In this document: positions 38,331-48,856 of the stretch, in pieces
Layout of the letters: each line of letters begins with the position of its first letter
Numbering within the stretch: position 1 is the first letter of the stretch
NCBI GenBank assembly: GCA_003712125.1
Contig: RHLF01000001.1
Location: 1,240,001 to 1,304,000, forward strand
DNA from: Allomuricauda sp.
GTDB taxonomy: Bacteria > Bacteroidota > Bacteroidia > Flavobacteriales > Flavobacteriaceae
Direction: 5' to 3'
DNA: 64,000 nt
Program-made: the position numbers and the translations under genes
The notes under the pieces: generated by a model
Seen by the model: the letters and a program-made list of their open reading frames with translations, nothing else
The model's database searches: none
What the model was told of the DNA's origin: nothing

Positions 38331-39620
38331 TTAATTGGACTTTAAAACTTTGTCCATTTTAGATTGAATCTCATCTAAGCATAGATTACCAATACTGCCC
38401 TCGTGGGTATGTTTGCCATCTCTCTTTGGTTGGAAATTGCCATTTTCGATGGCCTTGCCCATGGTTTTGTAGGCATCTCGAAAAGGCATTCCGCTCTTCA
38501 CCATTTCGTTCAATGTATCCACACTAAAGAGATAGTCATACTTTGGGTCTTCTAAAATGGTTGTATTTACCTTGATTTTTTTGAGACTAAAAATCATCAA
38601 TTCCAGGCAGGCCTTCATATCCTGTAAGGCAGGCACAATGATTTCCTTGACCAATTGCAGGTCACGGTGATACCCGCTGGGCAGGTTGTTGGTGATTAGA
38701 GCCAATTCGTTGGGAACAGCCTGTATCTTATTGCATTTTGCCCGAATGAGTTCAAAAACATCAGGGTTTTTTTTATGGGGCATAATACTGCTGCCCGTAG
38801 TCAATTCATTGGGGAATGTTATGAAATCAAAATTCTGGCTCATATAGAGCGTGATATCCATAGCAAATTTGGACAGTGTTGCAGCAATACTAGAAATCCC
38901 ATAAGCCGTAGCTTTTTCAACCTTTCCACGACCCATTTGTGCCGCCACTACATTGTATTTTAGGGTTTCGAAACCCATTTCTTTGGTTGTAAAGTTCCTG
39001 TCTATAGGGAAGGAGCTACCATATCCTGCTGCGCTGCCCAATGGATTTTGATCGGCAGTTTTATAGGCGGCCTGAACAAAGTAGAGATCGTCTATGAGGC
39101 TTTCGGCATAGGCGGAAAACCACAAACCAAAAGAAGAAGGCATGGCAATTTGCAAGTGTGTATAGCCGGGCAGCAATACCTTCTGATGCTTTTCGGCCAA
39201 CTTTAACAATTGGTCAAACAAGTTTTTTACTTGATTTTTAATTTCTGCCAATTCATCTTTTAGGTAAAGCTGCATAGCCACCAATACTTGATCGTTTCGA
39301 GATCTTGCGGTATGAATCTTTTTACCAATATCCCCCAATTTTTTGGTGAGCAAGAACTCGATTTTCGAGTGCATGTCCTCAAAATCCTCTTCAATTGTGA
39401 ATTTGCCTTTTTCGATTTGTTTAGCAATGACATTCAATTCTTTGATCAATGCTTGACCTTCTTCTTCGGAAATCAACCCAACTTGTGCCAGCATTTTGGC
39501 GTGGGCCTTAGAAGCAATCACGTCATATTTCGCTAGGACCAAGTCAAGTTCACGGTCATTGCCGACAGTAAATTGGTCTATTTTTTTATCAGTGCTAAAA
39601 CCTTTATCCCAGAGTTTCAT
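38331..39620 (-). CDS. argH: Argininosuccinate lyase
   Basis: MKLWDKGFSTDKKIDQFTVGNDRELD...HTARSRNDQVLVAMQLYLKDE; TTGSSIMPHKKNPDVFELIR. Confidence 0.96.
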   Translation of the reverse strand: MKLWDKGFSTDKKIDQFTVGNDRELDLVLAKYDVIASKAHAKMLAQVGLISEEEGQALIKELNVIAKQIEKGKFTIEEDFEDMHSKIEFLLTKKLGDIGKKIHTARSRNDQVLVAMQLYLKDELAEIKNQVKNLFDQLLKLAEKHQKVLLPGYTHLQIAMPSSFGLWFSAYAESLIDDLYFVQAAYKTADQNPLGSAAGYGSSFPIDRNFTTKEMGFETLKYNVVAAQMGRGKVEKATAYGISSIAATLSKFAMDITLYMSQNFDFITFPNELTTGSSIMPHKKNPDVFELIRAKCNKIQAVPNELALITNNLPSGYHRDLQLVKEIIVPALQDMKACLELMIFSLKKIKVNTTILEDPKYDYLFSVDTLNEMVKSGMPFRDAYKTMGKAIENGNFQPKRDGKHTHEGSIGNLCLDEIQSKMDKVLKSN

Positions 39621-40687
39621 TTTAAAAATCCTTCTAAAATATCAATGTAGAGCCCAACGGCTTCTTTTACTTCGTGTACATAAATAAATTCATCGGCCGA
39701 ATGCGACCGTGGGCTATGGCCCGGACCAAGTTTGAGCGACATGCAACTTAATTCAGCTTGATCTGAAAGCGTTGGCGAGCCATAGGTTTCACGTCCCAAT
39801 GCAATACCAGATTGTACCAGGGGATGTTCAATGGGTATGGAAGAGCTGCTCAGGTTAAGTGACCTCGGGGTCAATTGACAAGGGGCTTCCTTTTGTAAGA
39901 TCTCATTTATTTCTTCGTTGGTATAGCAATCATTAACCCGGGTGTCAATGACCAACTCCACATCAGCGGGTACCACATTGTGTTGACTGCCCGCCTTTAT
40001 TTGTGTAACGGTCATTTTTACGGGTCCCAAGACATCAGAAACCTTTTCAAATCGATAATTTTTGAACCAATCCAATACCTTAATGGTGTTGTAAATAGCA
40101 TTATTATCGTTTGGGTGTGCAGCATGCGAGGGCGTGCCCGATACTTTTCCCTCGAACACAACCAGACCTTTTTCGGCAATGGCCAACTGCATTTCAGTGG
40201 GTTCACCAACAATGGCCACATCAATGGGCGGTAAAATGGGTAATAAGGCTGAAATACTTTTATCTCCGGCATCTTCTTCTTCGGCTGTGGCACTCATAAT
40301 AATATTGTAGCTGAGGTCTTCGCGATCATAGAAATGTACGAAAGTGGCCAAGAGCGAGCACAGGGCTCCACCGGCGTCATTGCTTCCCAACCCGTACAGT
40401 TTGCCATCTTCAATATGGGGGTTAAAGGGGTCTTTGGTATATCCAGAATTTGGCTTTACCGTATCATGATGCGAGTTCAACAAAAGATTTGGTTTGCTTT
40501 CATCATAATGCTTGTTGAAGGCATAGATATTGTTGTACTGACGCTTGGTTTCAACACCAAATTTCTCGAGCCACGTAGCAATGGCTTCTGCCGTTTCATC
40601 TTCCTCTTCCGAAAAAGATGGAATAGAAATTAATTGTTGCAATAGGGCCAAGGTCTCTTCGGCCAATGTTTTTTTATCAATTTTCAT
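39617..40687 (-). CDS. argE: M20 family deacylase, N-acetyl/N-succinyl-ornithine deacylase type
   Basis: LLLNSHHDTVKPNSGYTKDPF, GLGSNDAGGALCSLLA, SATAEEEDAGDKS; 4-nt overlaps with both neighbouring arg genes. Confidence 0.9.
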   Translation of the reverse strand: MKIDKKTLAEETLALLQQLISIPSFSEEEDETAEAIATWLEKFGVETKRQYNNIYAFNKHYDESKPNLLLNSHHDTVKPNSGYTKDPFNPHIEDGKLYGLGSNDAGGALCSLLATFVHFYDREDLSYNIIMSATAEEEDAGDKSISALLPILPPIDVAIVGEPTEMQLAIAEKGLVVFEGKVSGTPSHAAHPNDNNAIYNTIKVLDWFKNYRFEKVSDVLGPVKMTVTQIKAGSQHNVVPADVELVIDTRVNDCYTNEEINEILQKEAPCQLTPRSLNLSSSSIPIEHPLVQSGIALGRETYGSPTLSDQAELSCMSLKLGPGHSPRSHSADEFIYVHEVKEAVGLYIDILEGFLK

Positions 40688-41463
40688 AACACCAGTTGTG
40701 TATAATTGGATGTCGATTTTTCGAACAAGCCTAAATTGCCAATCCGAACTTCTTTGACCCCATGTTCCAGGGCTTCAAAACAGTTATGCAATTTAGGAAG
40801 CATTCCGTCAGCAATTTTTCCATGCTCGATTAATTTTTGATAGGTGATGGAATCAATTTTAGGAATTACCGAATTTTTATCCGCTATGTTTTCCAAAACC
40901 CCATTCAATTCAAAACAATAATTAAGAGTTATGTCAAATTGATTGCTTAATCCTGTTGCCACCGTTGAAGCAATAGTATCGGCATTGGTATTTAATAATT
41001 GACCTTTCGTGTCATGGGTCAAAGCACAAAAAATAGGGGTAAGCCCCAGGTTTAATAGAGCAGCTATTGATGGGCCGTTTATAGTGTGCACATCTCCCGC
41101 AAAACCATAATCAATTTCCTTAATGGGACGCTTGTGCGCTTCAATAACATTGGCGTCTGCGCCACTCATTCCAATCGCATTGGTACCCAGTGCCTGAAGC
41201 TTTGCCACAATATTTTTATTGACCAAGCCCCCGTACACCATGGTCACTACCTCAAGGGTTTCGACATCGGTAATTCGCCGCCCATGTATCATTTTCGGTT
41301 GAATACCCAATCTGTGCAACAGTTCGGTAGCTTTCTTTCCGCCGCCGTGAACCAAAATCTTTTTCCCATCTACCTGAGAAAACAAACGGAGGAACTGTTG
41401 AAGTGCATCCTTTTCTTCAATGATGGCGCCCCCTATTTTAAATATGTTGAGTTTACTCACCAT
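40684..41463 (-). CDS. argB: N-acyl-glutamate kinase
   Basis: LNIFKIGGAIIEEKDALQQF, ILVHGGGKKATELLHRLGIQPKMIHGRRITD, GEL-type amino acid kinase fold. Confidence 0.93.
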   Translation of the reverse strand: MVSKLNIFKIGGAIIEEKDALQQFLRLFSQVDGKKILVHGGGKKATELLHRLGIQPKMIHGRRITDVETLEVVTMVYGGLVNKNIVAKLQALGTNAIGMSGADANVIEAHKRPIKEIDYGFAGDVHTINGPSIAALLNLGLTPIFCALTHDTKGQLLNTNADTIASTVATGLSNQFDITLNYCFELNGVLENIADKNSVIPKIDSITYQKLIEHGKIADGMLPKLHNCFEALEHGVKEVRIGNLGLFEKSTSNYTQLVL

Positions 41464-41638
41464 CTTTATTGGATTGGTTAAGCGATAGTATCATCGACAG
41501 GATCAGAAAAAACATGGATACCGGCAATAGCAGGTCTTTCCAATTGAAATTCTCATAATCGATTTCCATTAGATGAACAATGATTAAGATTACGGCCAAG
41601 CCAATTAAACCATATCTGAACTTATTGCTGTTAAACAT
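41453..41638 (-). CDS. Small (61-aa) two-TM protein of unknown function inside the arginine operon
   Basis: MFNSNKFRYGLIGLAVILIIVHLMEIDYENFNWKDLLLPVSMFFLILSMILSLNQSNKDGE; overlaps argB start by 11 nt. Confidence 0.7.
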   Translation of the reverse strand: MFNSNKFRYGLIGLAVILIIVHLMEIDYENFNWKDLLLPVSMFFLILSMILSLNQSNKDGE

Positions 41639-41656
41639 TTTGGTTTCTCAGTTTAT

Positions 41657-42595
41657 TTATAATGCTGTTAATAGTTCTTTCAACACCAATTGTGCTGCCC
41701 ATGTTCTGTTATTGGCTTGGTCAATAACCAAGCTTTGTGCGCTGTCTAAAACTGCATCTTCAACAACAATATTTCTACGAACCGGCAGGCAATGCATGAA
41801 TTTTGCCTTGCCCAGTTTCTTTTTTGTCATCATCCAGGTGGGGTCATGCTGTAAAACCTTACCATATTCCGTATAGCTACTCCAGTTTTTCACATAGACA
41901 AAGTTCGCATTTTCAAGTGCCTTTTCTTGATCATTCACAATCTTACATCCATTTGTGATTTCAGGATTCAACTCATAACCAGGAGGATGTGTAATAACAA
42001 AATCCGCATCTTGCTTTTTCATCATGGCAATGAACGAATTGGCGACCGCATGGGGCAATGCCTTGGGATGCGGTGCCCATGACAACACTACTTTGGGTTT
42101 GCCATTAATTCTGTTTTCTTCAAGCGTAATGGCATCTGCCAGGGCTTGTAAGGGGTGTGCTACAGAACTTTCCATATTCACCACAGGAATTGTTGCGTAT
42201 TTTTTGAAACCATTTAAGACCACTTCTGCTTCATCTTGCTCTTTATTGACAAGTCCTGCAAAAGCACGGATGGCAACAATATCTGCATATTGCGAAACCA
42301 CCTGCGCCGCCTCCCGAATATGTTCGGATTTGCCTTGGTTCATTATAGCACCCTCTTCAAATTCAAGTTGCCATCCTTCAGCACCAAAATTCATGACTAT
42401 GACATTCAATCCTAAGTTTGTAGCTGCTTTTTGAGTGCTCAACCGTGTGCGTAGACTATTATTGAAAAATAGCAGACAAATGGTTTTTCTTTTGCCCAAT
42501 TCTTGTAATGCATAGGGGTCTTTTTTAAGTTTAATAGCTTGCTTCACTGCCATATGAAGGTCCCCCAAATCGCTTATGTTCAAATAGTGCTTCAT
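41657..42595 (-). CDS. argF': N-acetyl/N-succinyl-ornithine carbamoyltransferase
   Basis: FNNSLRTRLSTQKAATNLG carbamoyl-phosphate motif, WAPHPKALPHAVANSF, MHCLPVRRNIVVEDAVLD; resembles AOTC/SOTC rather than OTC. Confidence 0.92.
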   Translation of the reverse strand: MKHYLNISDLGDLHMAVKQAIKLKKDPYALQELGKRKTICLLFFNNSLRTRLSTQKAATNLGLNVIVMNFGAEGWQLEFEEGAIMNQGKSEHIREAAQVVSQYADIVAIRAFAGLVNKEQDEAEVVLNGFKKYATIPVVNMESSVAHPLQALADAITLEENRINGKPKVVLSWAPHPKALPHAVANSFIAMMKKQDADFVITHPPGYELNPEITNGCKIVNDQEKALENANFVYVKNWSSYTEYGKVLQHDPTWMMTKKKLGKAKFMHCLPVRRNIVVEDAVLDSAQSLVIDQANNRTWAAQLVLKELLTAL

Positions 42596-43719
42596 GATAA
42601 TTCTTGAATCAATTTATCGAAGAACAAATCGATATGTTCTTTAGTTATGGTTAATGCAGGTAAAAAGCGCAGTAATTTTTTGTTGGCCGAACCGCCCGTG
42701 AATAGGCGTTGGTTGTGAATTAAATTTTTTCGCAACGCTCCAACCTCAGCGTCAAACTCCAATCCCAACATCAATCCTCGCCCTTTAACCTTCTTCAACG
42801 CTGAAATATGAGCGGCCCTATTTTTGAAATACGTCTCCAATTGAGCTGCGTTTTCGATCAATTCCTCTTTTTCCAAAACTTCCAAAACGGCTAAGGTGGC
42901 GACACAGGCTAAATGGTTGCCACCAAAGGTTGTTCCCAGTTGACCATACCAGGGTTTGAATTTCTCATGGATTAAGATACCACCAACAGGAAAGCCGTTT
43001 CCCATGCCTTTTGCCATGGAAATGATATCCGGTTCAATGCCGTGATGTTGAAAAGCAAAAAACTTTCCACTTCTTCCAAAACCAGATTGTACTTCATCTG
43101 CAATTAGGACCACTCCATGTTCTTTGCACTTTTGGGCGATGAACACATAAAATTCCGTGGTCGGTTCATCAAGACCGCCCACCCCTTGTATCGATTCTAT
43201 GATTACCGCACAATGGTCCCCACCGGCGATTACTTTTTCGAAGGTTTCAAAATCATTTAAGGGTACGAAGTCAACCTGTTGTTGCCTGTTGAGGGGCGCA
43301 TTGATTTTTGGATTATCGGTGGCCGCAACCGCAGCTGAAGTCCGTCCGTGAAAACTGTTTTTAAAGGCAATTACTTTTGATTTGCCTGTATGAAAAGAAG
43401 CCATTTTTAAGGCATTTTCATTGGCTTCGGCCCCAGAACTGCACAAAAACAGTTGGTAATCGCGGCATCCGGAAACAGCACCCAGTTTTTCAGCCAACTC
43501 GAGTTGCAAAGGATTTTTAATCGAATTGCTGTAAAAGGCCATTTGGTTTAATTGCTCGGTCAGCCTTGTCACATAATGGGGATGTGAATGTCCGATGGAT
43601 ATTACTGCGTGACCCCCATAAAAATCCAGATAGGTTTGACCCCGCTCATCGGTTAGCTCGATTCCTTGTGCAGAAACAGGGGTAATGTCATAAAGTGGAT
43701 ATACATCAAATAGTCTCAT
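42592..43719 (-). CDS. argD: Acetylornithine aminotransferase family (class III PLP)
   Basis: DFYGGHAVISIGHSHPHYV, LIADEVQSGFGRSGKFFAFQHHGIEPDIISMAKGMGNGFPVGG. Confidence 0.94.
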   Translation of the reverse strand: MRLFDVYPLYDITPVSAQGIELTDERGQTYLDFYGGHAVISIGHSHPHYVTRLTEQLNQMAFYSNSIKNPLQLELAEKLGAVSGCRDYQLFLCSSGAEANENALKMASFHTGKSKVIAFKNSFHGRTSAAVAATDNPKINAPLNRQQQVDFVPLNDFETFEKVIAGGDHCAVIIESIQGVGGLDEPTTEFYVFIAQKCKEHGVVLIADEVQSGFGRSGKFFAFQHHGIEPDIISMAKGMGNGFPVGGILIHEKFKPWYGQLGTTFGGNHLACVATLAVLEVLEKEELIENAAQLETYFKNRAAHISALKKVKGRGLMLGLEFDAEVGALRKNLIHNQRLFTGGSANKKLLRFLPALTITKEHIDLFFDKLIQELS

Positions 43720-44510
43720 GCTTCCCTGATTTCGCTGATTTTCTTGTATGAAGTAACAATTCCTTGAATAAGCGAAGAGCTTAAGCCTTGATGCTCCATT
43801 TCGTTCAAGCCCTCAATGGTACATCCTTTTGGGGTGGTTACCCGATCAATTTCTTGTTCGGGGTGACTACCGGATTCCACCAAAAGATTTGCAGCTCCGT
43901 TGCAAGTATGCATGGCCAATTCCTGTGCCTCTTTAGCATCAAAACCCAATTGTATGGCCCCTTGGGTAGTAGCACGTATCAATCGCATCCAAAATGCAAT
44001 TCCACTGGCACAAATAACCGTTGCGGCTTGCATCTGCTCCTCTGGTATTTCCATAGAATGCCCCATACGGTTAAAAATTGCCTTGGCCAATTCGATTCGT
44101 TTTTTGCCCAGCTCATTGCTGCAAATGCAGGTCATGCTCTTACCTACCGATATGGCGGTATTGGGCATGCTTCGAATGATGTTTTTGTCCGCTCCAATAA
44201 TGGATTCCATTCGGGCAATACCAAACCCGGTAATGGTGCTGATGACCACATGATTTTCGGTGAGCAAATCCTTGATGTCATGGAGAATGGCTTCGAAATG
44301 TCCTGGTTGTACGGCGAAAATCAATATGTCTGAGTTTTTAACGGCTACCGCATTATCGGTGGTCAAGGTTACATTGCCATACTTTTCGAACTCCTTGATT
44401 TCGGTTATATTCCTTTTGGTCAGATACATCGTGGTGGCACCGTTGCTGTGCAAAATTCCTTTTGCGATCGACAACCCTAAATTACCAGCTCCTATTATTG
44501 CTATTTTCAT
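43716..44510 (-). CDS. proC: Pyrroline-5-carboxylate reductase
   Basis: MKIAIIGAGNLGLSIAKGIL, IIRSMPNTAISVGKSMT, VTTPKGCTIEGLNEME. Confidence 0.94.
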   Translation of the reverse strand: MKIAIIGAGNLGLSIAKGILHSNGATTMYLTKRNITEIKEFEKYGNVTLTTDNAVAVKNSDILIFAVQPGHFEAILHDIKDLLTENHVVISTITGFGIARMESIIGADKNIIRSMPNTAISVGKSMTCICSNELGKKRIELAKAIFNRMGHSMEIPEEQMQAATVICASGIAFWMRLIRATTQGAIQLGFDAKEAQELAMHTCNGAANLLVESGSHPEQEIDRVTTPKGCTIEGLNEMEHQGLSSSLIQGIVTSYKKISEIREA

Positions 44511-44519
44511 ACTGTTTTT

Positions 44520-45494
44520 TTAAAATGCTATTGATTTCAACCTTAACCCTAATTCTTCCTCTAAACCAAAACTCAAGTTCATGTTTTGTACAGCTTGCCC
44601 CGACGCACCTTTCAATAGATTGTCAATTGCTGAAGTGATCAATAGAACGCCGTCATGTTTGTGCAAATGGAGATGACAATTGTTGGTATTTACCACCTGC
44701 TTTAGGTGAATCGGTTCTTCAGCGATATGGGTGAATGGTGCATGTTGGTAAAACGAGGTATAAATCTTTTTTGCCTGCTCTAAACTACCTTCGAATTTGG
44801 TGTAGGCTGTGGCGAGTATACCCCTTGCAAAGTTGCCCCGGTTTGGTAAAAAATGAATTTTCCCGAGACTATTTCCAAAAGTGAGTAAGCTTTCATTTAT
44901 TTCACCCAGATGTTGGTGCGTAAATGGTTTGTACCAACTCACGTTGTTGTTCCGCCAACTGAAGTGCGTTGTAGCTGATGGTTTGATTCCCGCTCCCGTA
45001 CTGCCAGTGACAGCGTTGACATGAATGTCATGCTGCAATAAATTACTATGTGCCATGGGTAACAATGCCAACTGAATGGCTGTTGCAAAGCAACCTGGGT
45101 TGGCAATGGCCCTTGCCTTTTCAATGTTGCTTTTGTTCAATTCGGGCAGTCCGTATATAAATTGACTGGTTCCAAAATTGGAATTTTCCAGTAATCTAAA
45201 ATCATTGCTCAGGTCAATAACCAAGGTCTCTGAGGAAAATGGATTTTCTTTTAAAAATTGGGTTGAATTGCCATGGCCAAGACATAGAAAGACCACATCC
45301 ACCTCTTGGTTAATGGCTCCCGAAAAAATCAATTCCGATTGCCCAATTAAATCGGGGTGGGCCAAGGCCACTGATTTTCCGGCACGTGTGGTGCTGTAAA
45401 TAAAATCGATTTCTACGGCGGGGTGGTTAATCAACAATCGAATCAACTCACCTCCTGTATAACCTGAGCCACCTATTATTCCTGCTTTAATCAT
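44520..45494 (-). CDS. argC: N-acetyl-gamma-glutamyl-phosphate reductase
   Basis: MIKAGIIGGSGYTGGELIRLLINHP, IANPGCFATAIQLALLP. Confidence 0.95.
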   Translation of the reverse strand: MIKAGIIGGSGYTGGELIRLLINHPAVEIDFIYSTTRAGKSVALAHPDLIGQSELIFSGAINQEVDVVFLCLGHGNSTQFLKENPFSSETLVIDLSNDFRLLENSNFGTSQFIYGLPELNKSNIEKARAIANPGCFATAIQLALLPMAHSNLLQHDIHVNAVTGSTGAGIKPSATTHFSWRNNNVSWYKPFTHQHLGEINESLLTFGNSLGKIHFLPNRGNFARGILATAYTKFEGSLEQAKKIYTSFYQHAPFTHIAEEPIHLKQVVNTNNCHLHLHKHDGVLLITSAIDNLLKGASGQAVQNMNLSFGLEEELGLRLKSIAF

Positions 45495-46677
45495 GATCTT
45501 GATTTACATGGTTTGCAATTTTCCCAGGATTGGAAAGAATTTTTATGAAGCCTTTGGCGTCATCTGCCGTCCAGCCCTTATTTAATTCACCATAGCTACC
45601 AAATGAGGCATTCATGAGGTCATGAGGTGAAGAAATGCCATCCAATCTAAACTGAAAGGGATATAGACTTACAAAAACAGCTCCGGAAACATTTTTTTGC
45701 GTGTCGATTAAGAAAGCCTCAATATTTCGCATAACCTCATCCAGATAGTTTCCTTCGTGTAATAACATTCCATAAAAATTACCCAGTTGTTCCTTTTGGT
45801 ACTGTTGCCATTTACTGAGCGTGTGCTTTTCCAACAAATGATGCGCCTTAATTATGATCAATGGCGCTGCCGCTTCAAAACCTACACGACCTTTGATGCC
45901 AATGATGGTATCGCCCACATGAATATCCCGGCCAATGGCATATGATGAGGCCAATGATTCCAATTTTTCAATATTTAGAACAGGATCATTTTTTTCATCG
46001 TTTAACGCCACAAGCTCCCCTTTTTCAAAAGTTAACTTTAGCTTTTTTGGTTCTTTTTGTTGCAATTGGCTAGGATAGGCCGAATCAGGCAGCGGCAAAT
46101 GGGAGGTTAAGGTCTCAGCACCTCCTACCGAAGTACCCCATAGTCCCCGATTGATAGAGTATTTTGCTTTCTCCCATGAATAATCCACTCCATTTTCCTG
46201 TAGGTACTTGATTTCTTCCTCACGAGCCAGTTTATTGTCCCTAATCGGTGTGATGATTTCGATGTCAGGTGCCAAGGTTTGAAAAATCATATCGAATCGT
46301 ACTTGGTCATTGCCAGCACCGGTACTTCCATGCGCAATGTGGCTCGCTCCCATTTTCTTTGCATGGTTGACAATTTCCACAGCTTGAACAATTCGCTCTG
46401 CACTTACCGATAGTGGGTAGGTGTTGTTCCGCAGTACATTCCCGAAGATTAGGTACTTGACCACTTTTGAATAAAAATTCTGGACAGCGTCAATCGAAGT
46501 ATATGTGCTGGCCCCAAGCGCCAACGCCTTTTCTTCTATCGCTTTGATTTCTGCCTTGGAAAACCCGCCTGTATTTACGCTAACTGCGTGTACCTCATAA
46601 CCTTCTTCTTTAGAAAGATATTTGGCGCAGTATGAGGTATCCAAACCGCCACTATAGGCTAGAACTAATTTTTTCAT
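45487..46677 (-). CDS. argG: Argininosuccinate synthase
   Basis: KKLVLAYSGGLDTSYCAKYLS, AHGSTGAGNDQVRFD, GRVGFEAAAPLIIIKAHHLLEKHTLS. Confidence 0.96.
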   Translation of the reverse strand: MKKLVLAYSGGLDTSYCAKYLSKEEGYEVHAVSVNTGGFSKAEIKAIEEKALALGASTYTSIDAVQNFYSKVVKYLIFGNVLRNNTYPLSVSAERIVQAVEIVNHAKKMGASHIAHGSTGAGNDQVRFDMIFQTLAPDIEIITPIRDNKLAREEEIKYLQENGVDYSWEKAKYSINRGLWGTSVGGAETLTSHLPLPDSAYPSQLQQKEPKKLKLTFEKGELVALNDEKNDPVLNIEKLESLASSYAIGRDIHVGDTIIGIKGRVGFEAAAPLIIIKAHHLLEKHTLSKWQQYQKEQLGNFYGMLLHEGNYLDEVMRNIEAFLIDTQKNVSGAVFVSLYPFQFRLDGISSPHDLMNASFGSYGELNKGWTADDAKGFIKILSNPGKIANHVNQDHD

Positions 46678-46678
46678 T

Positions 46679-47290
46679 TTATTTTTTCTTGAGGAATAAA
46701 TTTTCTTTGATGCTTTTTAAGCGTTTGAAAGCTTTTTTATTCAATTTTTGGTTTTCTATTTTTTCTTTCGCATTGGGGTCGTAGAGCATACCGGTACATA
46801 GGCACATCTTGCGTTCGGTTCGGGTTAGAATATCAAAATTCTTGCAGGTTTGGCATCCTTTCCAAAACTCGGGGTCATCGGTCAATTCTGAAAAAGTAAC
46901 AGGTTTATAACCCAAATCATAGTTCATCTTCATTACGGGTAAGCCGGTGGTGATCCCAAAGATTTTTGCATCTGGAAATTTCTCTTTGGACAACTCAAAA
47001 ACGCGTTTTTTGATTCTTTTTGCCAATCCTTGCCCTCGATAGTCAGGATGTACAATGAGTCCTGAATTTGCTACAAAGCCTTTGTTGCCCCAAACTTCGA
47101 TATAGCAAAAGCCAGCAAAAATATCTTGGTCCAACGCAATAATGGCGTTACCATTTTGCAACCTCTTGATGATATATTCAGGCGTGCGCTGCGCAATACC
47201 GGTACCACGAACTTTTGCTGATTCGGTGATGGTATCGCTTATTATTTGCGCGTATTTAAAATGTGATTCGTTAGCAACTACAATTTTCAT
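46679..47290 (-). CDS. GNAT-family acyltransferase, first structural gene of the arginine operon; candidate N-acylglutamate synthase
   Basis: GNAT A-motif NSGLIVHPDYRGQGLAKRIKKRVFEL; C-terminal Cys motif CQTCKNFDILTRTERKMCLC; 1-nt gap to argG. Confidence 0.85.
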   Translation of the reverse strand: MKIVVANESHFKYAQIISDTITESAKVRGTGIAQRTPEYIIKRLQNGNAIIALDQDIFAGFCYIEVWGNKGFVANSGLIVHPDYRGQGLAKRIKKRVFELSKEKFPDAKIFGITTGLPVMKMNYDLGYKPVTFSELTDDPEFWKGCQTCKNFDILTRTERKMCLCTGMLYDPNAKEKIENQKLNKKAFKRLKSIKENLFLKKK

Positions 47291-47337: not shown

Positions 47338-47359
47338 GGGAATGGACTCACCTAATCCC
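47338..47359 (-). promoter_or_regulatory. Candidate hairpin in the arginine leader RNA, possible attenuator element
   Basis: RNA GGGAUUAGGUGAGUCCAUUCCC folds by hand as GGGA/UCCC plus GG/CC with a mismatch and a bulge; T-runs at 47321..47325 and 47312..47318 follow downstream. Not computed. Confidence 0.3.
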
Positions 47360-47376
47360 AAAATCGATGTGCACCC

Positions 47377-47457
47377 TTACGGGCGGCGACGGGGCGCGAA
47401 CGGACGGACTGGAGCGCTGTGGCTCAACGTAGTGAATATGTAAAGTTGTTCGTTCAT
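47377..47457 (-). CDS. Arginine-rich leader peptide (26 aa) preceding the arginine operon
   Basis: ATG AAC GAA CAA CTT TAC ATA TTC ACT ACG TTG AGC CAC AGC GCT CCA GTC CGT CCG TTC GCG CCC CGT CGC CGC CCG TAA = MNEQLYIFTTLSHSAPVRPFAPRRRP*. Lies in the intergenic gap upstream of the GNAT-argG-argC... operon, same strand, directly behind a promoter-like sequence. Confidence 0.8.
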   Translation of the reverse strand: MNEQLYIFTTLSHSAPVRPFAPRRRP

Positions 47458-47464
47458 TATGGGG

Positions 47465-47493
47465 TAAATGTACAAATTCCCTGAAACCCCCAA
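47465..47493 (-). promoter_or_regulatory. Bacteroidota-type promoter for the arginine leader/operon
   Basis: Minus strand TTG-N18-TACATTTA (consensus TTG-N~19-TAnnTTTG, one mismatch), 7 nt before the leader-peptide ATG. Confidence 0.6.
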
Positions 47494-47503
47494 TATTTTG
47501 GTA

Positions 47504-48856
47504 TCACTTTTTACGAATCGTTGCAATTATGTTATGATTTTTCACGATTTCGTAGCCGAGATACATAAAAACAAAAAGATATTCAACGGCAATGACGCCC
47601 AAACTTTCTTTAAAATCGGGTTGCGAGTACGCATAATAACTTAAAATGACCAGGGCTGACCATAAAATGGTGTAGCGATAATTGGTAAAAAGACTCAAGC
47701 CCAAAAGGAATATAAGATACCATGGGTGTACCGTAGCCGACAATACATAATAGCCCGTTAACAAGATAAGCATCGATGTAAAGAGCGATTGCATTTTGTT
47801 ATAATCGCGGAATATCATCAAAAGAAAGGCCAATAAAAGAGTAAAGAGCGGCACTAAATCGCCATAATCCTTAACTATAATCCATGGCTTTTGGTCATAA
47901 TAAGCCACTGCAATAACCTTGACCAAATTATATACGCCCGCATTGAATTCGAAATTGGAGAACCAAAGGCCGATGGTGTCTGCATAATTATCCAAAAATT
48001 GTGGTGAATAAAAGGGGAGTAAGATTGCCATGCAAAACACGGCAACAACCCCATAGAACAGGAAACTTTTTTTAATCCCTAAAAAGGGCAGGAGAAGTGG
48101 TAAAAACAACAAGGGCACCAGTTTTAACATGATAGAAGCGGCATAAATGGGAGCCGCCCAGATTGTTTTGCCAATTGAAACCAAATACATCGCCCAAACA
48201 AACAAGAAAAACATGACACCTTCGAAATGCAGATTTCCGGTCAATTCAATAATGACCAATGGATTTAAGAAATACCAAAAAATGAGGTGTGGACTTTGGT
48301 TTAGGTGTTGCAGCAATTTTCTCCCAAAGTAAACAACACCGATATCGGCAAGGATAATAACAATTCTCATCCAAATAACACTCCGTAAAAGGCTACCCAT
48401 GCCGAGATAGGAACTCACCGAAAAAATCAATTGATTAATCGGGGGATAGTTGCTGTAATGCTTAGCGCTTAAGCTGCCCATACCTTTATGCAGGGCAAGT
48501 TTATTTGGTATATCGAAAGAAGGATTGTCAAGTAAGGCGTTTGGTGTAAACAGATAGGGATTGAGCCCGTTCTTGATCAATTCTCCATCCCAGATAAAGC
48601 GGTAAAAATCCTGTGATAGATTGGGCTCGGCAATCAGGAAAATTAACCGAAATAGGATGCCGACAACTAGCAGAAATTTAAAGTTCCATTTTTCAAATTG
48701 TAACAATTTGATCAGCAACAAGAAAAGTGCGGCGTAGAGTCCTGCTAGTTTTAGAAAATCTGCCCGATCCAAGTCATATGCAAAAACGGCATAAAAGACA
48801 AGACTCGCCAACGCCAGAAGAATTGGGATTTTATGCAGGTTCCAGTAAGAAGACAT
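47504..48856 (-). CDS. Polytopic glycosyltransferase (mannosyltransferase/GT-C-like)
   Basis: 450 aa, many TM segments; AEPNLSQDFYRFIWDGELIKNGLNPYLFTP loop typical of GT-C enzymes. Confidence 0.7.
   Translation of the reverse strand: MSSYWNLHKIPILLALASLVFYAVFAYDLDRADFLKLAGLYAALFLLLIKLLQFEKWNFKFLLVVGILFRLIFLIAEPNLSQDFYRFIWDGELIKNGLNPYLFTPNALLDNPSFDIPNKLALHKGMGSLSAKHYSNYPPINQLIFSVSSYLGMGSLLRSVIWMRIVIILADIGVVYFGRKLLQHLNQSPHLIFWYFLNPLVIIELTGNLHFEGVMFFLFVWAMYLVSIGKTIWAAPIYAASIMLKLVPLLFLPLLLPFLGIKKSFLFYGVVAVFCMAILLPFYSPQFLDNYADTIGLWFSNFEFNAGVYNLVKVIAVAYYDQKPWIIVKDYGDLVPLFTLLLAFLLMIFRDYNKMQSLFTSMLILLTGYYVLSATVHPWYLIFLLGLSLFTNYRYTILWSALVILSYYAYSQPDFKESLGVIAVEYLFVFMYLGYEIVKNHNIIATIRKK

Follow-up and report, generated by a model that had tools for sequence, protein, structure and literature searches.

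In textbook bacteria, arginine control rests on ArgR/AhrC, and the locus described here raises the question of what controls the arginine operon in a bacterial family where that repressor is missing. The operon lies on the minus strand of a 64,000-nt stretch of Allomuricauda sp. (Flavobacteriaceae; assembly GCA_003712125.1, contig RHLF01000001.1, positions 1,240,001-1,304,000 of the forward strand), hereafter the window. Its first gene encodes a 203-aa GNAT acetyltransferase (46679..47290, minus strand; a weak NCBIfam match to N-acetyltransferase) and is followed, at 38331..46677 on the same strand, by argG, argC, proC, argD, an N-acetylornithine carbamoyltransferase-like gene, a 61-aa ORF, argB, an ArgE/DapE-type gene and argH. 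All of these were identified by NCBIfam matches apart from the 61-aa ORF (41453-41638, between the carbamoyltransferase gene and argB), which matched no NCBIfam family.

Upstream of GNAT, 213 nt separate its start at 47290 from the end of the preceding gene at 47504. A sequence-only reading had placed in this gap a promoter-like element and a 26-codon arginine-rich leader ORF, on which stalled ribosomes were proposed to attenuate the operon. The gap, the promoter-like element and the ORF are all as described there. The ORF (47377..47457, minus strand) runs from an ATG at 47457 to a TAA at 47379-47377 and encodes MNEQLYIFTTLSHSAPVRPFAPRRRP; three consecutive Arg codons, CGT CGC CGC (47383..47391), precede the final CCG TAA, and a fourth Arg lies within PVRPF. 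The promoter is of the Bacteroidota type (47465..47493, minus strand), with TTG at 47493-47491, an 18-nt spacer and TACATTTA at 47472-47465, 7 nt before the leader ATG. From the leader stop to GNAT the distance is 86 nt, close to the approximately 87 nt given earlier.

Homologous sites were located through the GNAT gene, for which 199 of the 301 Flavobacteriaceae genomes gave a match; loci from the separate searches derive partly from the same genomes, and the set used for RNA motifs comprises 141 distinct sequences. All 30 best-matching GNAT loci carry an upstream ORF with terminal Arg codons, nearly always ending (R)RRRP-stop, at 84-98 nt from GNAT. The leader is also present in nearly all of 80 named loci, from Muricauda/Flagellimonas, Zobellia, Maribacter, Croceitalea, Pricia, Kriegella and others, and among 60 more divergent loci the RNA motif in which the Arg codons lie is kept in 58, being absent from one and degenerate in another. 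When the upstream ORF richest in Arg close to its end was taken at each of these 60 loci, it had 4.8 Arg on average, compared with 1.6 in dinucleotide shuffles. The expectation that a short Arg-ended ORF would recur in relatives' arg leaders was thus borne out in 30 of 30 of the closest loci and, at the codon that enters hairpin H1 (see below), in 107 of 107 dereplicated Flavobacteriaceae leaders. The codon preceding it falls outside the hairpin and encodes Arg in 101 of the 107, and the next one upstream does so in 63. Judged by this comparison, the Arg-ended leader ORF is not a chance occurrence and is one of a conserved set, in which selection keeps a run of two to four Arg codons at the end.

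The leader ORF also bears marks of translation. Across 18 independent pairs of leaders, with the last five codons left out, substitutions at codon positions 1, 2 and 3 numbered 30, 17 and 47, and 38 of the 77 codons with a single change were synonymous; this third-position bias is a coding sign and argues for translation of the ORF. Its length is narrowly kept (26-27 codons in 84 of 99 loci) and its start lies 5-9 nt 3′ of the TAnnTTTR (-7) box (n = 99). In Flavobacterium psychrophilum the TAnnTTTG box sits at -12 to -5 (PMC9723704), so the spacing would leave a 5′ UTR of 1-5 nt and a near-leaderless mRNA; for the window, transcription is predicted to start near 47460, with a 5′ UTR of about 3 nt. 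Loci of other lineages that have no ATG show, by eye, a TTG or GTG at the equivalent position just past the promoter box. Upstream of the terminal codons there is no in-frame enrichment in Arg (6.2% in frame versus 5.4% and 8.9% out of frame), and the sensor would therefore comprise only 2-4 codons. Leader Arg codons of the window and its relatives are CGY in 94% of cases (344/366), versus 24/79 across the genes of the window's arg operon, a preference that may come from pairing in H1 or from the sensing of one tRNA.

Three hairpins, H0, H1 and H2, were found along this leader and, with the predicted near-leaderless start, go beyond what the sequence-only reading had described. H1 (CGCCC-GTAA-GGGTG, 47372..47385, minus strand) is supported by covariation. 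It joins the last Arg codon and the following CC to GGGYG, with the stop codon in its loop, and all five pairs can form in 125 of the 141 distinct sequences. In three sequences the stem is replaced by the compensatory CGCAC/GTGCG, and the peptide follows, RRP becoming RRT in one. The left arm of H1 holds the last Arg codon, and a ribosome stalled there must therefore prevent H1.

The same codons might be sensed in a different manner, through the nascent peptide: arrest at RRRP-stop would be induced by free arginine (or ornithine), as in TnaC, and not by empty Arg-tRNA. The near-invariance of the RRR(R)P-stop end in the window's clade and the Pro codon before the stop, which recalls TnaC, speak for such an arrest, but the peptide end is not fixed, since the stop shifts in some loci (RRPLGR-stop, RRPVGV-stop, RRRRPIWA-stop, RRRPSGRV-stop), and Pro gives way to Thr (RRT-stop) alongside the compensatory change in H1. 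The remainder of the peptide is variable, and the CCG codon is accounted for by H1. We consider peptide sensing unlikely.

H2 (GGGATT-A-GG-TGAGT-CC-ATTCCC, 47338..47359, minus strand) also shows covariation. Its tip, GGTGNGTCC in the window, is near-invariant as GGUGNGUCC and starts about 33 nt 3′ of the H1 start; it has the form U-R-N-G-Y closed by two G-C pairs, and the GG/CC closure covaries to GA/TC in three sequences. The outer stem has 5.89 of 6 pairs on average versus 5.04 with shuffled arms (maximum 5.20), with one T-T mismatch in the window's own copy, and TAGGTGAGTCCA is found once in the window's genome. H0 (GAGC-CACAGC-GCTC, 47412..47425, minus strand) lies inside the ORF, some 20-30 nt before the Arg run. 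Hairpins at this site exceed shuffles in both clades (11.4 versus 8.1, sd 0.49, in one; 12.8 versus 9.6, sd 0.35, in the other), and it is the position that is kept and not the sequence, which is rich in G+C in one clade and in A+T in the other. Folded alone, the window leader is unremarkable (z = 0.84); single-sequence energy misses the signal that covariation reveals. No Rfam family matched the window region at E values up to 1, or 16 relatives at up to 0.5.

Two further candidate structures were discarded. A hairpin at the GNAT start codon (AGCAA/TTGCT) had seemed conserved by eye but did not outdo shuffled or swapped sequences, and the idea that the H2 tip pairs with the 3′ end of 16S (AGGTGA) fails on the variants GGTGTGTCC, GGTGCGTCC and GATGCGTTC.

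Since ATGGAAATAGGTGAGTCCATTTCC translates to MEIGESIS in many loci and an ORF (MEIGESIS...) is present there in several relatives, H2 might instead mark a second short gene. The window has TTG at its start, though, and other loci have no start at all; the stems change pairwise as the peptide changes (MELGESSS, LGLGESNP), and the bulge varies in length out of frame. Covariation speaks against H2 as a second peptide, and we give the second gene next to no weight. The converse idea, that the leader ORF is incidental and that H1 and H2 form a structured RNA, either an arginine riboswitch or a protein-binding site with no need of translation, draws on the covariation of both hairpins, the near-invariant H2 tip and the almost exclusive use of CGY among the Arg codons. 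It does not account for Arg at the codon just outside H1 in 101 of 107 leaders, for the third-position bias in the ORF, or for the retention of Arg with different codons in other families, and we rate it as unlikely, slightly less probable than arrest by the nascent peptide.

The next question is what a stalled ribosome would act upon. No conserved intrinsic terminator was detected before GNAT: a terminator-like stem with a T run occurs in 4 of 60 loci of the family and 2 of 40 further loci. Average pairing probabilities likewise gave no conserved antiterminator or competing pairing, with the footprint of a stalled ribosome masked or unmasked, whereas H1 and H2 do show. His and ilv leaders of Flavobacteriaceae served as a positive control: a his example reads MTFIQLHHHHFHTCTQAS and is followed by the terminator AAACCCGTTTGAG..CAAACGGGTTTTTT. 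A his leader peptide with a clear intrinsic terminator precedes hisG in most Flavobacteriaceae examined; by the same criterion the window's own genome has no his leader or terminator. Leaders rich in Ile/Val/Leu, such as MKKQILNIVSIMVIVIISQG, with intrinsic terminators, are found upstream of ilvD in four loci, before some ilv operons, and make up a second attenuator of the classical type in the family. With plain terminators behind the his and ilv leaders and none behind the arg leader, the latter is unlike the attenuators of its own family.

These data bear directly on transcription attenuation of the classical his/trp type, in which stalling at the Arg codons would favour an antiterminator over an intrinsic terminator. 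An Arg-codon leader that is correctly placed and enriched in the cognate codon, directly upstream of a biosynthetic operon, is what such a system would have, and in 4 of 60 loci a T run follows H1 or a stem next to it, so that H1 could terminate weakly in some species. Against it, the terminator is not conserved and the competing pairing is absent, in a family where the his and ilv terminators are obvious, so that we hold this form of attenuation to be improbable, on a par with nascent-peptide sensing.

None of 101 Flavobacteriaceae genomes, the window's included, matched ArgR (PF02863), and the controls E. coli, B. subtilis and Bacteroides did. Across the class, PF02863 was found in 9 of 198 genomes, one match being marginal. 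In five ArgR-positive genomes argR immediately precedes the GNAT gene, and these five are the class genomes that combine a strong ArgR match with this GNAT gene. The presence of argR in the leader's place looks as if one regulator had taken over from the other, on a leader search that did not extend to the regions upstream of argR and with two lineages, genus g130 and family f7, that appear to have neither regulator. In three loci of g130 and two of f7 the Arg leader is absent despite the GNAT gene; the -7 box lies close to GNAT in four of these five, and no ArgR was present in those genomes tested.

Beyond the Flavobacteriaceae, the same Arg count was made upstream of the same GNAT gene at 37 loci of other families. 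Its mean was 2.62, versus 1.71 for shuffled sequences (highest of 100 shuffles, 2.14) and 1.86 for the opposite strand; at least three Arg occur in 23 of the 37, a figure that includes chance ORFs. Examples are MKIYQTYHLSLFPLRRFRRPSGV, MKSTSLHIIALSILNRIRNRRPSRA and ...VPFFPRR-stop. The Arg codons of these leaders include AGG, CGA and CGG, and this variety speaks for selection on the amino acid. A covariance model found one true site outside the family, in a locus of family f71 with the leader MLQAMRHIVTLPVCAAQHMQRRFRRRPSGRV, a CGCCC-TTCG-GGGCG hairpin and GNAT directly downstream; the remaining weak matches were not before GNAT, and the model as built therefore fails to carry across families. 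Hairpins with a URNGY pentaloop and at least 7 pairs occur in 8 of the 37 regions versus 1.3 expected (maximum 4 of 60 shuffles), which is suggestive only; the H2 tip may be older than the Flavobacteriaceae. In nine other-family loci a GC-closed hairpin stands between the Arg leader and GNAT, with loops UACGU/UACGC/UAUGY/UGCGC that resemble the H2 tip with the closing pairs flipped.

If the leader is an arginine sensor that is operated by the ribosome and acts in cis on the arg operon, a reading to which we assign a probability of about 0.75 on comparative grounds, it would work as follows. When charged Arg-tRNA is scarce, the ribosome would stall on the Arg run and keep H1 from forming. When arginine is plentiful it would finish and leave, H1 would form beside H2 and expression of the operon would be lowered. 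The output is most probably something other than intrinsic termination; candidates are RNA polymerase pausing, Rho-dependent termination, mRNA decay and a factor recognising H2, and H0 and H1 could serve as pause hairpins that keep polymerase and ribosome in step. No conserved structure links H1 to a switch in expression, which counts against the sensor model, as do the lineages that have the GNAT gene but neither leader nor ArgR. Of the original proposal, control of the operon by ribosome stalling on Arg codons appears well supported, because the Arg run before the operon and H1 are conserved, ArgR is absent and argR, where present, lies directly upstream of GNAT; its attenuation part, with something terminator-like in 4 of 60 loci and no conserved alternative pairing, is not supported in the classical form.

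The wider proposal is of a sensor widespread in the Bacteroidia that replaces ArgR and consists of a near-leaderless Arg-codon ORF and a stalled ribosome, with no intrinsic terminator and with output through the new element H2 acting on polymerase, RNA decay or an RNA-binding factor; we put it forward tentatively, at a little under even odds. Over much of a major phylum, an Arg-codon leader seems to stand in for ArgR/AhrC. That it has no terminator, in a family with classical his and ilv attenuators, suggests an output of another kind, and H2 adds a new conserved RNA element whose tip is defined. No published description of an arginine leader in Bacteroidota was found in the literature covered, mostly papers outside subscription; for F. 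psychrophilum, one report mentions suspected leader-peptide attenuation before amino-acid operons, and its supplement might list an arg case (PMC9723704).

Among known systems, ArgR has the same operon and the same physiological job, but it is a protein repressor and is absent from the Flavobacteriaceae genomes examined. The his and ilv attenuators of the same family share with the arg leader a peptide rich in the amino acid of its own pathway and a position before the operon, and differ from it in carrying strong intrinsic terminators. Mycobacterial leaderless polycysteine ORFs, reportedly described by Canestrari et al. in 2020 as amino-acid-responsive attenuators, are likewise leaderless short ORFs with a run of cognate codons, although they concern cysteine and Actinobacteria, and the likeness is one of ORF features and not of RNA structures. 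Arg-codon leaders that work with no plain terminator have two precedents. In one, S. aureus rbfL, Arg codons of an upstream ORF sense arginine limitation, but the stalled ribosome there covers the ribosome binding site and so represses, the codons are rare and the gene is a biofilm regulator (PMC13009471). The other, the Salmonella speF leader orf34, differs in having two Arg codons, an ornithine decarboxylase operon, a gammaproteobacterial host and a sequestered ribosome-binding site, with no H2-like hairpin in the portion compared. When arginine is low, the ribosome pauses at these two consecutive Arg codons, which alters mRNA folding and decay by RNase G, while Rho is countered by translation (PMC6386406); the output is thus not a simple terminator, and in this it resembles what is proposed for our leader.
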